The position numbers and the translations under genes were made by a program. The notes under the pieces were generated by a model. That model was given only the letters and a program-made list of their open reading frames with translations, did no database searches and was not told where the DNA came from. Shown piece after piece: positions 1 through 10,436 of a stretch of DNA of 64,000 nt; the first letter of the stretch is position 1; each line of letters starts with the position of its first letter. Source of the stretch: Betaproteobacteria bacterium Ga0077527 (GTDB taxonomy: Bacteria; Pseudomonadota; Gammaproteobacteria; Burkholderiales; SG8-41); NCBI GenBank assembly GCA_001464815.1, contig LNDW01000005.1:1-64000 (forward strand), written 5' to 3'.

Positions 1-140
1 GATCCGTGTGCTTGTACGGAGACGGACGTTTGCTGCTCGTCGGAATGGCACAAGACTGGCATAAGCGCTGTTGCCAGACCCTGCAGAGGCAGGACCAGCA
101 GCAGCACCGCAAACACGATATGTTTGAGTCGATTGTGCAT
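1..140 (-). CDS. small secreted Cys/His-containing protein, CzcI-like (partial, runs off window edge)
   Basis: Reverse-strand translation MHNRLKHIVFAVLLLVLPLQGLATALMPVLCHSDEQQTSVSVQAHG: signal peptide followed by a Cys/His segment, as in small proteins heading metal efflux operons. Confidence 0.5.
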   Translation of the reverse strand, partial: MHNRLKHIVFAVLLLVLPLQGLATALMPVLCHSDEQQTSVSVQAHG

Positions 141-231
141 ATGTCGCAAGTCTATAAGAAAACGCTCACAAACCGCAATTAAGACTGGCAGTTTGACAAA
201 AAGTGCCAGTATTTTTTTAGAGAAAGGGACT

Positions 232-1569
232 TCATGCCGGTTTTTGCCGGGTATCAGTCCCTAGCTCAAAAGGGAAACTCACCACGGCAGTCAATCCCGT
301 TCCAGTTCGCCCGTCTTCCAGGCTCAGCCGGGCGCCAAGACGCTCAGCAGCCCGGTGGGCGATGGCAAGCCCAAGGCCGGTTCCGGAGGTTTCGGAGACA
401 TTGTCGCCCCTGTAAAAACGGGCAAAGGCTTTGTGGCGCACGTCCTCGGACATCCCGGGGCCGGTATCTGAAATCGTGATTTCCGCGCCCTTGTCCGATG
501 TGCTCAGTTCGATGGTTATCGCCCCATTTACAGGGGTATACCGGATCGCGTTATCGACCAGATTACGCAGCAATGCACGCAAGCTGGTCGCATCTCCACT
601 GATGGATGCCGGGGTATTGGCATTCAAGGTTAATCTGAGCGATTTGGCTGTCGCATGTGGTTGCAGCTCCTCGTATATTCCCGTGATGAATTCCTGAAGC
701 CGGATCGTTTCGGTTGGCGCCCCGTAATCCGGGTCCAGCCGGGCGAGGGTAAGGATTTGTTCTATCAGCCGGCTGATGCGGCTTACACCCTGACGGATGT
801 CGGCAATCAACTCTGCCCGTCCGGACTCTTCACGGGTGGATTCCAGCAGTTCCAGTTGTAATTGCAGTGCGGTGACCGGTGAGCGCAATTCATGGGAGGC
901 ATCGGCTATGAATTCGCGTTCAACCTTGAGCGCTCGATCCAGCCTGCCCAGAAGGTCGTTCAGTGAGTAGACCAGAGGCATGATCTCTGAAGGGCGGCCG
1001 GACAGGCTCAGCGGAAGCAGCACCTTGGGATCCCTGGACTCCACTTCCCGTGCTATCGAACGCAGCGGTGCGAGTCCGTATCCCAACAGCAGCCAAATGA
1101 GTGCGCCACCGATTGGAACGATAGCCAAGATCGGCAGCATGGCATTCAGGGCGATGTCGGTGGCCAGTTTGCGGCGCAGCGTTTGCGGATGCGCGGCCTG
1201 CAGTACGTAGTTGCCGCCCCCGGTCGTGAACGTACGCCAGCCGGTCGATCCGCCGAAATCCGAGAAACCGTTTTCCAGAATGGTGACGGGGCCCGTGCCC
1301 GGCTTGGAGGAGAACAGCAGTTTGCCGCTTTTGTTCCAGACTTGGGTCACGAAGTCGTGCTCAATACGCAGCAGAGGCTCTTCGGTCAGCTCCGGGTGTG
1401 ACGCAATGTGCATTGCCAGGGCATAGACCATTTGCTCCATTTCGTAATCGAACAGCTTGTTGACATCCGACCTGGCGCGCATATAGGTCACGCTGCTGGC
1501 GCCTACGGCGAGGACCAGCAACGTGGACAGCATTGTCCACAAGAGGCGTTTTCTGATGGAAAAACTCAT
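232..1569 (-). CDS. two-component sensor histidine kinase
   Basis: HAMP/HisKA/HATPase motifs (FIADASHELRSPVTALQLQLELL, NLVDNAIRYTP, SDTGPGM, GTGLGLAIAHRAAERLGA); likely start MSFSIRKRLLW overlaps the upstream regulator stop by 4 bp. Confidence 0.93.
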   Translation of the reverse strand: MSFSIRKRLLWTMLSTLLVLAVGASSVTYMRARSDVNKLFDYEMEQMVYALAMHIASHPELTEEPLLRIEHDFVTQVWNKSGKLLFSSKPGTGPVTILENGFSDFGGSTGWRTFTTGGGNYVLQAAHPQTLRRKLATDIALNAMLPILAIVPIGGALIWLLLGYGLAPLRSIAREVESRDPKVLLPLSLSGRPSEIMPLVYSLNDLLGRLDRALKVEREFIADASHELRSPVTALQLQLELLESTREESGRAELIADIRQGVSRISRLIEQILTLARLDPDYGAPTETIRLQEFITGIYEELQPHATAKSLRLTLNANTPASISGDATSLRALLRNLVDNAIRYTPVNGAITIELSTSDKGAEITISDTGPGMSEDVRHKAFARFYRGDNVSETSGTGLGLAIAHRAAERLGARLSLEDGRTGTGLTAVVSFPFELGTDTRQKPA

Positions 1570-2225
1570 TGTTCGGAAAGCTTGTAGCCGACACCACGGA
1601 TGGTCTTGATCAGTTTCGGGGTCAGCTTTTTGCGCAGATTTGATATGTGCACTTCGACAGCATTGCTTTCCACCTCCTGTCCCCAGGCGTAAACGCTCTG
1701 TTCGAGGCTGGCTCTGGATATCACCGTGCCTGGATGCCGTATCAGGCTTTCCAGAATCGCGAATTCCCTTTGGGACAAGGTAACCTCTTTTCCCTTGCAC
1801 AGCACTTCCCGGGTAAGCGGGTTCAGCTCCACTCCGCCATTCCGGAACACCGGATCGGCTTGGCCAGCGCTGCGCCTGAGTAAGGCACGCACTCTGGCGG
1901 CGAGTTCGGACATGCTGAAAGGCTTGACCAGATAATCGTCGGCACCGGCATCAAGACCGTTGACCCTGTCTTCCACACCGTCTCGTGCGGTGATGATCAA
2001 CACTGGCACCTTTTTGCCTTTTTGACGGACATTCTTCAAGACCTGAAGACCATGCACCCGCGGCAATCCCAAGTCCAGGATCAGCAGATCGTAATCCGTG
2101 GCGATCAGGGACTGCTCGGCGGCCCAGCCGTCACGTACCCAGTCAACACCATAGCTTTCTCGACGCAAGCCCTCACGGATGCTTTTGCCGATCATTTCAT
2201 CATCTTCAATCAACAGCAGTCGCAT
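1566..2225 (-). CDS. OmpR-family response regulator
   Basis: MRLLLIEDDEMIGKSI receiver with LLILDLGLPRVHG and winged-helix C-terminus (EVHISNLRKKL...IKTIRGVGYKL). Confidence 0.94.
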   Translation of the reverse strand: MRLLLIEDDEMIGKSIREGLRRESYGVDWVRDGWAAEQSLIATDYDLLILDLGLPRVHGLQVLKNVRQKGKKVPVLIITARDGVEDRVNGLDAGADDYLVKPFSMSELAARVRALLRRSAGQADPVFRNGGVELNPLTREVLCKGKEVTLSQREFAILESLIRHPGTVISRASLEQSVYAWGQEVESNAVEVHISNLRKKLTPKLIKTIRGVGYKLSEQ

Positions 2226-2334
2226 TGTCGCGCTTCTTGAGAAATTGCTACATTAGATAGGTGTAAAAAAATAATCATCCGCAATGCCCCGGGATGCGGA
2301 GCAAGGCGGATGATTGAGCGAACCCGGCCGAAAA

Positions 2335-2730
2335 TCAAGCGATGACGCCGGCTTCGGGCGCCGAAGGAGGAAACGGGTCGGTGCCGCCTTCGTGGTAGGC
2401 GAGGATCTTTGCGTCGCTATCGCGAACTTCTGGAGCCGAGGTCGGGAACGGATCGTTACCGCCTTGGTCATAGGCGATTACTGATGGGCTATCGGATATC
2501 GCTTCCGGGGCTGAAGTCGGGAAAGGATCCGTTCCGCCCTCGTGATAGGCAATGACCGTCACGCCGCTGGTACCCGCTTCGGGTGCCGAGGTCGGGAAGG
2601 GGTCATTACCGCCTTGATCATAGGCGATTGTCGAGGGGAACTTGAAGACCGCCGGAGCGGCATTTACTGCGGAAACGGTGCTGATGCTCAGCGCAACTGC
2701 GATAAGCATTTTCAGAGAAGTGGTTTTCAT
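2335..2730 (-). CDS. small secreted repeat protein, four 25-aa repeats AY(DQ/HE)GG(N/T)DPFP(T/P)SAPE
   Basis: Signal peptide MKTTSLKMLIAVALSISTVSAVNA followed by four near-identical repeats alternating DQ..N and HE..T types. Confidence 0.85.
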   Translation of the reverse strand: MKTTSLKMLIAVALSISTVSAVNAAPAVFKFPSTIAYDQGGNDPFPTSAPEAGTSGVTVIAYHEGGTDPFPTSAPEAISDSPSVIAYDQGGNDPFPTSAPEVRDSDAKILAYHEGGTDPFPPSAPEAGVIA

Positions 2731-2844
2731 GGTGTCATTCCTTTCAGGGTTTAATTAACAGAGGCATCGTTCACGAGGCCACGAAATCATTATCGACATC
2801 CAAGCTGAAGGATTTCTGAAGGGGCAGGAAGAGCGTTTCTGCAA

Positions 2845-2889: not shown

Positions 2890-4062
2890 TCAGAAATTAT
2901 GTCGCAACCCTACGCCCCAGCCATCCTGTTTGTTGCCGTTGGATGCACCCGAAAGTCCTCCCAAGGTATATGCGGCCCTGGCATCGTTGTTCAGTCTTGC
3001 ATAGCCAGCAAAGGTCTGTGTTCGTTTTGAGAACTGATAGCGATAACGGAGCGTCCACAGTTCCGCGCCGGTATCTCCCGATACCAGAACACCGTTGACC
3101 AGGTTCAGCGCCGCAGGTCTGGTTGCGCCACTGCCGGCAAGGGCTATCAAGCTGTTTCCCTTGACGTCACCGGTTGCGGTATACGAAGCAAGCAGGCTGT
3201 GTGGACCCGCGATGTTCCAGTCCATGCCGAGTTGCCATGCATTGATCTTGGATTCCGTGGTTGCGGATGTTTCGAGGTTTTGCTGGGTATAGAAGGCTGC
3301 CAGCTTCATCTTGCCCATGAACGTGTATGCGGCACCCAGATGCCAGCCAGTGTCGTCATTGGCGCCTCCGATTGCGCCGAACTGACTGTGTTTTTCGTAA
3401 GCCCCGGAGATGTAAAGAGGTCCTGACGTATATTGCGCCCCCAACGACCACAATCTTGGTTTGGCTGCTGTTGCTGCCACGGTGGCCGAAGTGGCACCGT
3501 TGGTGGAACTGACTGCTGCCATTACCTGAAAACCGTTCCACACCGGGCTGTCGTAGTTGATGGTGTTGGACTGGCGGCGCTGAAACAGGGCGCGGCTGGA
3601 ACCGTCCAGAGTGCTTGTGGATCCCGCTGTCAGCAGGAACGTGGAGCCCCAGAGGCCGACCACGTTGGCGCCAACGAATGAGGTTGGTAGCATGGTGCGC
3701 TTGAATGGCGTATCCCACCGGCCCATGAAAATGTTACCCACGGGGCCCTTGAGGCCGATGGCACTGTTGCGGCCGCAAAATCCGTCTTGATTGACCCCGC
3801 GAATATCTGCTGTACTTTCGCATTGGAACCATGCCGACAGTCCGCCGCCAAGCTTCTCCTCTCCCTTGAAACCGATATTACTCAAGGGCACCTGCATCAT
3901 GTCGACGCTTGGGCGGGGCCCGTTTGTACCAATTCCCTGATCCAGATAGCCGTACTCCAGATCAATCGTGCCGTAAAGCTGTACGGTGCTTTGTGCGAAA
4001 GAAGCCGCAGCCTGAAAACCAAAAACTCCGGCCACTGCCGTTGCAATCAGCTTGATTTTCAT
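2890..4062 (-). CDS. Gram-negative porin
   Basis: Signal peptide, SSTVQLYGTIDLEYGY-type start, ends in aromatic residue (VGLRHNF); burkholderial porin family. Confidence 0.93.
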   Translation of the reverse strand: MKIKLIATAVAGVFGFQAAASFAQSTVQLYGTIDLEYGYLDQGIGTNGPRPSVDMMQVPLSNIGFKGEEKLGGGLSAWFQCESTADIRGVNQDGFCGRNSAIGLKGPVGNIFMGRWDTPFKRTMLPTSFVGANVVGLWGSTFLLTAGSTSTLDGSSRALFQRRQSNTINYDSPVWNGFQVMAAVSSTNGATSATVAATAAKPRLWSLGAQYTSGPLYISGAYEKHSQFGAIGGANDDTGWHLGAAYTFMGKMKLAAFYTQQNLETSATTESKINAWQLGMDWNIAGPHSLLASYTATGDVKGNSLIALAGSGATRPAALNLVNGVLVSGDTGAELWTLRYRYQFSKRTQTFAGYARLNNDARAAYTLGGLSGASNGNKQDGWGVGLRHNF

Positions 4063-5853: not shown

Positions 5854-6028
5854 TCACACCCCTGTATGCACGGTGACAAGCTTAAGAAATCGTTAAGCTT
5901 TCCCTTGTTCATGTGGATTAGCCTTCGGTAGCGGCAAATTAGTTGCTTGAGGATTACATGGAGATTGCCAACTCGACATGGCCGCACTTTGCTGTCGTGT
6001 TTGCCAAAGACAGTTATAAAGGAAAACA

Positions 6029-8293: not shown

Positions 8294-8653
8294 ATGAAAT
8301 CGAAAAAAATATCTTCCGCACTGTTTTTGTCAATTTTATCTATAGCCGCCGCTCCTGCAATTGCAGTCGATCAGCAAGATTTTCAGACTTTGATGAAAAG
8401 GGGTGACCTAGGAACCCTTTCGCAACCAGCGGCTGCGCAGAGATCACTAAAGATCAAAAGCTCGCAACGCTACCTTAATGTCGAGCGCAACGAGACCGTA
8501 AATCTCGAAGATGGCGGAGGGCAAAGCTTTACATGGAGGTTTGATACCTTGGGTGAGCGTAGCTTTCCTTTGCAAGTGATTGCTCCAAAAGGTTTTAATG
8601 CTGGGCAGGTGTTGGTGTACGTTGGTAATCCGTACACTTATAACGCTGATTAA
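8294..8653 (+). CDS. czcE: CzcE-like periplasmic heavy-metal protein
   Basis: Signal peptide plus SSQRYLNVERNETVNL...SFTWRFDTLGERSFPLQVIAPKGF; directly downstream of czcRS-like genes, as in czcDRSE loci. Confidence 0.7.
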   Translation: MKSKKISSALFLSILSIAAAPAIAVDQQDFQTLMKRGDLGTLSQPAAAQRSLKIKSSQRYLNVERNETVNLEDGGGQSFTWRFDTLGERSFPLQVIAPKGFNAGQVLVYVGNPYTYNAD

Positions 8654-10019: not shown

Positions 10020-10436
10020 TTACTGCTTGACACGATACAAGGCGATTTCCTTGCCATTAACTGTTTTGCAGCGCAGGCGCCAGTCATCCCCATGTTTTAA
10101 ATGGTCGCAGCTTAGCTTCTCACCATCACCGGCTGTCAGCGTAGTCGAGCCGAAGACGAAACTCATTTCCTGCTTGATGTTCGGGTGCTTATGGTCGGGC
10201 GCCCATTCGAAGCGACGCACTTGCTCATCGGTTGTTTCGTCATTTAACTCTCCTGCCACGCCTGTGTATTCCTTGTTGTCGAGTACCACGGCTATTTGAG
10301 TGGCACCCCAAAGAATGGGGTATGTAACCGTGGCAGAAGCGGAGTTCCCCGACATTGGCTTGAGAAGTGAGGTCTGGCAGCCAGCCAAGCCTGCGCTTGC
10401 TGCGATCAGGGTGAGAGCAGCTATGGCGGTTTTCAT
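10020..10436 (-). CDS. small lipoprotein, unknown function
   Basis: Lipobox LAGCQ after MKTAIAALTLIAASAG. Confidence 0.7.
   Translation of the reverse strand: MKTAIAALTLIAASAGLAGCQTSLLKPMSGNSASATVTYPILWGATQIAVVLDNKEYTGVAGELNDETTDEQVRRFEWAPDHKHPNIKQEMSFVFGSTTLTAGDGEKLSCDHLKHGDDWRLRCKTVNGKEIALYRVKQ

Follow-up and report, generated by a model that had tools for sequence, protein, structure and literature searches.

PcoE and SilE, the periplasmic copper and silver sponges of the pco and sil systems, bind several ions, and CpxP, encoded beside cpxRA, modulates its kinase. PcoE and SilE alike are disordered, have repeated motifs and contain 10 His and 10–15 Met; the repeated motifs of SilE, a sponge, are of the His/Met kind (PMC5008109). 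The czcE gene of C. metallidurans, a neighbour of czcRS, is transcribed as a single gene, and its product influences the activity of CzcRS (PMC10127602). Overexpression of CpxP inhibits CpxA (PMC11078701).

Here, we compare with these systems a gene for a secreted repeat protein (2335..2730, minus strand) found in a 64,000-nucleotide stretch of DNA from Betaproteobacteria bacterium Ga0077527, hereafter the window. The gene encodes 131 aa from an ATG start, with a Sec-type signal followed by four 25-residue units. Like PcoE and SilE, its product is small and secreted with repeated motifs, and the gene has its own promoter (box, −10 element and terminator), an adjacent response regulator and kinase (RR1 and HK1) and a metal cluster around it. 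Unlike them, the protein carries 25-aa GGxDPFP units and lacks His/Met-rich metal-binding motifs, and it has no sequence similarity to PcoE or SilE as judged by Pfam/NCBIfam family searching.

CzcE likewise is a small protein of the periplasm whose gene adjoins a two-component system, and it fills the identical slot behind the same promoter box in one genome (G014). However, CzcE represents a family of folded domains for which Pfam has a model, whereas the repeat protein has no predicted fold and did not match that model, PF16986, in a Pfam search. With CpxP it shares a small periplasmic product and a gene controlled by the adjoining two-component system, putatively so for the repeat gene, but no homology between the two was found. 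We lean towards reading the repeat protein as a periplasmic metal-stress accessory protein that is induced by the adjacent two-component system and buffers metal or tunes the sensor.

The repeat protein and its 25-residue units

The Sec-type signal, MKTTSLKMLIAVALSISTVSAVNA^APA, ends VNA^APA and bears out the claim of an earlier note on this DNA that the 131-aa frame encodes a secreted protein; judging from it, the protein would be exported to the periplasm. The mature protein of ~107 aa is acidic, with a pI of about 4.05. The same note had called it rich in D/E/H, of which the acidity stands but the His content does not, as the mature proteins of the family have only 1–5 His, together with no Cys and 0–1 Met.

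The repeat protein is small and acidic and probably flexible. AlphaFold2, given an alignment of 7 sequences only, returned a mean pLDDT of 32 without secondary structure, and the charge-hydropathy value is borderline. This low-confidence model is consistent with disorder but no proof of it.

Units 1–4 begin at residues 35, 60, 85 and 110, at a strict spacing of 25 aa (75 bp) and with the amino acids that had been listed before, and TRF independently recovers the 75-bp array with a score of 192. All on the minus strand, they are the type-A unit 1 (IAYDQGGNDPFPTS..., 2554..2628), the type-B unit 2 (IAYHEGGTDPFPTS..., 2479..2553), the type-A unit 3 (2404..2478) and the type-B unit 4 (LAYHEGGTDPFPPS..., 2338..2403), whose C-terminus is shortened. 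Each has the core [ILV]-A-x-[D/H]-[Q/E]-[G/R]-G-[N/T/S]-D-P-F-P-x-S and then a variable linker. Where position 4 is D, position 8 is always N, and where it is H, position 8 is T or S; the alternation of DQ/N and HE/T types that had been described is indeed present in the window.

That alternation had been taken to imply duplication of a two-unit module of exact repeats. Exactness is confined to units 1 and 3, and there to their cores at the protein level (14/14 aa identical, 90% at the nucleotide level), whereas the remaining pairs are 69–76% identical in core DNA. Duplication of an A-B module to A-B-A-B is rejected on the unit DNA and the orders in relatives. The cores of units 2 and 4 are 71% identical in nucleotides, no closer than those of units 1 and 2 (71%), the linkers do not match up in pairs, and the A-B-A-B order is absent from every homolog. 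Relatives have A-B-B-B (G019), A-B-A-A (G007:C34) or A-A-A-B (G016), and the others are nearly all B-like.

The units appear old, and their type changes appear to have come by conversion or substitution. The cores of units 2 and 4 differ at ~10 of their 10.5 synonymous sites, and in most unit pairs such sites are close to saturation while the protein is almost identical, so selection on the protein is, by these comparisons, what holds the unit cores alike. For the 27 units pooled, pS is 0.67 vs a pN of 0.13 in the cores, and dN/dS is 0.24 between the window gene and its nearest ortholog (G019, 87%). With this selection, and with homologs carrying the same unit in 4 other genomes, the array is, as far as sequence can tell, more than chance.

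Direct metal storage is a possible but tentative account, in which each unit is a metal site formed by D/H4, D9 and an acidic residue near position 17, and four units hold about four ions. Position 4 is D or H in 27/27 units and D9 is kept in 26/27, the genes for PcoE and SilE are similarly placed and their products are disordered proteins built on repeated motifs (PMC5008109), and CzcE occupies the slot in G014. The residues themselves argue otherwise, since besides the lack of Cys, the few His and the single Met at most, the type-A units are without any His and the G016 protein has one His in all. Metal binding by the repeat protein is thus possible, with weak support from its own residues. 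Moreover, GG-x-DPFP-x-S is conserved no less than any potential ligand residue and would also suit a structural or partner-binding role.

Tandem peptide precursors, too, have a signal, conserved cores and variable linkers. Proteolysis could free secreted peptides of 14–17 residues, for signalling or antimicrobial action, and discard the linkers, which fits the layout and the strong purifying selection on the cores. We consider this very improbable, as the linkers have no constant cleavage site, the neighbours are metal genes, and no gene for peptide export, for a modifying enzyme or for immunity was recognised nearby.

Promoter, terminators and the adjacent two-component system

The PmrA box is defined as CTTAAG-N5-XTTAAT (PMC3973317). 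A direct repeat in this layout, CTTCAG-AAATC-CTTCAG (2805..2821, minus strand), precedes the repeat gene as a putative response-regulator site, and a putative −10 element, GATAAT (2789..2794, minus strand), follows 10 nt past it. As in the PmrA box, two tandem 6-bp half-sites are set 5 bp apart in all copies of the repeat gene, and the adjoining regulator is closest to the PmrA/QseB models. The half-site of the putative box differs, being CTTCAG and not CTTAAG/NTTAAT.

The arrangement of CTTCAG-N5-CTTCAG, 10 nt and GATAAT stands upstream of 8/8 copies of the repeat gene, with the box about 75–90 nt before the ATG. Even the divergent G016:C247 copy retains both half-sites, its box reading CTTCAGATTTCCTTCAG. 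Among 399 genomes of the order, the full box/−10 pattern without mismatch occurs only before repeat genes, and the box 17-mer is found once in the window's genome at up to 2 mismatches. Box matches with 2–3 mismatches across the order look like chance, and the box-like TTCCAGAAATCCTTCAG matches recur at a single conserved site adjoining a uvrA-like gene, with no secreted-protein gene downstream of them. The box conservation may come partly from common descent of one promoter.

Folding revealed terminator hairpins that a simple terminator scan had missed. One, followed by a T-run, lies 3′ of the repeat gene (2273..2315, minus strand; −28.2 kcal/mol, z −6.3), and its arms are present in most relatives too. 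Another (2848-2871) terminates the upstream porin gene (Porin_4; 2890..4062, minus strand), which is not conserved in all loci, and separates it from the repeat gene. Hence, with a strong terminator after it and another ending the porin gene, the transcript of the repeat gene is probably monocistronic, although transcription may to some extent continue into RR1.

RR1 (1566..2225, minus strand) is an OmpR/PmrA-QseB-like response regulator and overlaps by 4 nt with HK1 (232..1569, minus strand), a QseC/PmrB-like sensor histidine kinase. The best-scoring models of RR1 are PmrA and QseB, both below cut-off. It also scores under the cut-off of the heavy-metal regulator model TIGR01387 (CzcR/SilR/CopR; 193.7 vs 279.2 bits), and the neighbouring RR2 scores over it (343). 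Another 6 loci of the genus have RR1 orthologs, with 89–98% identity. The gene preceding RR1 is the repeat protein in 6/7 loci, G014 being the exception, and all six complete repeat loci (6/6) have the repeat gene, then RR1 and then the kinase where the contig goes on. Regulation of the repeat gene by the adjacent two-component system is, we infer, well supported.

This strict linkage to RR1/HK1 would also suit a protein in which each unit repeats a short motif that docks on the sensor domain of HK1 to damp or prime it, as CpxP does with CpxA or CzcE with CzcS, with strong metal binding unneeded. The conserved core is a linear motif between variable linkers, and parallels exist in the influence of CzcE on CzcRS (PMC10127602) and the inhibition of CpxA by overexpressed CpxP (PMC11078701). 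We hold this sensor-binding account doubtful, though possible, because the repeat protein diverges far faster (about 63–66% identity) than RR1 (89–94%) at the same loci and because RR1 in G014 pairs with CzcE in its stead.

Two further features of the regulators were seen. The sensor of HK1 contains the stretch HIASHPEL, with two His, which is kept in 5/5 HK1 orthologs compared and might be a metal site in the periplasmic sensor. The RR2 gene (6029) comes with a PmrA-like box variant of its own, CTTAAG-N5-(C/G)TTAAG, at 5881-5897 (plus strand) of the window and in L041, so RR1 and RR2 in the same island may be kept apart by one half-site base.

Distribution, metal islands and the CzcE exchange

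Homologs of the repeat protein are present in 4/20 other genomes of the genus, or 5/21 counting the window's own, and G007 has two gene copies on one contig and a third elsewhere. These genomes are drafts, several labelled MAGs, and contig ends cut several loci. The family had gone unrecognised in the earlier note, and it has no relative in Pfam, NCBIfam or PDB. Outside the genus, a search of 399 genomes from the order and 369 from the class found no homolog, phages and viral contigs gave no match and plasmids no true homolog. By these searches the repeat protein is an undescribed family, found in one Burkholderiales genus among the sampled genomes.

Several matches were rejected. The sole one in the plasmid collection, a Mesomycoplasma variable surface lipoprotein (33%), was judged compositional, that in G565 (L100) was a GC-rich repeat open in several frames, and that in G088 was a chance reading with an internal stop. 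A secreted protein of G086, from another family of the order (L011 1261-1881, minus strand), has exact 14-aa repeats, REGGDAPYMVAR, and adjoins an ABC-F-like gene; with another unit, length and neighbourhood, it is probably convergent.

The gene had been placed in a metal island, with a two-component system and porins adjoining it, and metal genes do surround it. The window island holds a heavy-metal-type RR2/HK2 pair, czcE (8294-8650, matching PF16986), a CzcA-type RND gene, CadR, a Zn/Cd-type P-ATPase and a second CusA/CzcA. This setting is strengthened by the promoter box, the repeat-RR-HK order and the CzcE swap in one genome.

Most neighbours of the repeat genes are copper or Cd/Zn resistance genes. 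In G016, the repeat gene, RR1 and HK1 are followed by genes for a short secreted protein, OEP, a multicopper oxidase, a cupredoxin, CusF and cytochrome c; judged by N-terminal similarity, G019 repeats this order and G005 the first part of it. The window contig begins within what is apparently the same short secreted gene (1-150, minus strand), so the copper genes may continue off the contig. G007 (G007:C44, L045 2844-7679) has the order repeat 1, CusF, CopA, CopB, cytochrome b561, repeat 2 and RR1. In its copy 1 the fourth unit is cut off by a stop and the terminator hairpin is gone, so the promoter could read into cusF-copA-copB.

In G014, RR1 is 98% identical to that of the window. As far as the RR1 start codon, the DNA of the two is 96% identical; beyond it, the two are unrelated except for 39 bp, which span the box and the −10 element. 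The gene in the slot encodes a metal-binding protein of the CzcE family (PF16986, E 1e-20), with the box upstream of czcE. This exchange of the gene, in which just the promoter and regulator are kept, is the strongest functional hint found for the repeat protein.

The G014 island also has an EptA-type phosphoethanolamine transferase gene (L048 2205-3818, minus strand) between the P-type ATPase and CzcE. EptA-type genes are of the sort controlled by PmrA elsewhere.

Metal islands gather unrelated genes, and the repeat protein could be an envelope or surface protein that rides these mobile islands without a metal role. Its patchy spread over 5/21 genomes, its fast sequence change and the porins adjoining the gene in the window would agree with such a passenger. 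We find this unlikely in view of the conserved, dedicated box and regulator and the swap with CzcE.

Proposed role of the repeat protein

The accessory role that we favour draws mainly on the signal with repeats, the common promoter, the repeat-RR1 order, the CzcE swap and the metal neighbours. Weighing against it are the few ligand residues, the score of RR1 below the heavy-metal cut-off, the gathering of unrelated genes in islands, the possible descent of one promoter, and the G016:C191 copy, which lies at a contig end with visible neighbours that are not metal genes. On balance, it seems to us the fairly probable reading. The metal-storing and sensor-binding accounts are parts of it and not mutually exclusive, and it is held above either one because the repeat protein lacks His/Met motifs.

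Mechanistically, HK1 would sense a periplasmic metal, most likely Cu and possibly Zn/Cd. Phosphorylated RR1 would bind the CTTCAG-N5-CTTCAG box and activate the repeat gene. The units of the exported protein may then serve as several equivalent low-affinity sites that hold metal or contact a partner, for example the HK1 sensor domain. Metal would thereby be buffered, the signal tuned, or both, in a function like that of PcoE/SilE or CzcE beside their two-component systems.

A bolder proposal, which we put forward with considerable doubt, is a new family of periplasmic metal-handling proteins that would bind or buffer metal through tandem [D/H]-[Q/E]-G-G-[N/T]-D-P-F-P units, with neither Cys, Met nor His-rich motifs; its gene would be the only one in the genome to carry the regulator's box and could be exchanged for CzcE. 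The repeat protein could reveal a metal-binding or sensor-tuning motif that is absent from present databases. Its setting is unusually clean, with a single conserved box, an own regulator pair and a natural CzcE exchange at the same promoter, and makes the role directly testable.

Metal-resistance islands hold many small secreted proteins without an assigned role. Another such product, a small lipoprotein-like protein (GCQTSLLKPMSGNSASATVKYPI...), two members of which gave no Pfam match, recurs in the islands at L048 1616-2032 and 6420-6860 (both minus strand), at 10023-10436 of the window (minus strand) and at L044 10399-10833 (plus strand).
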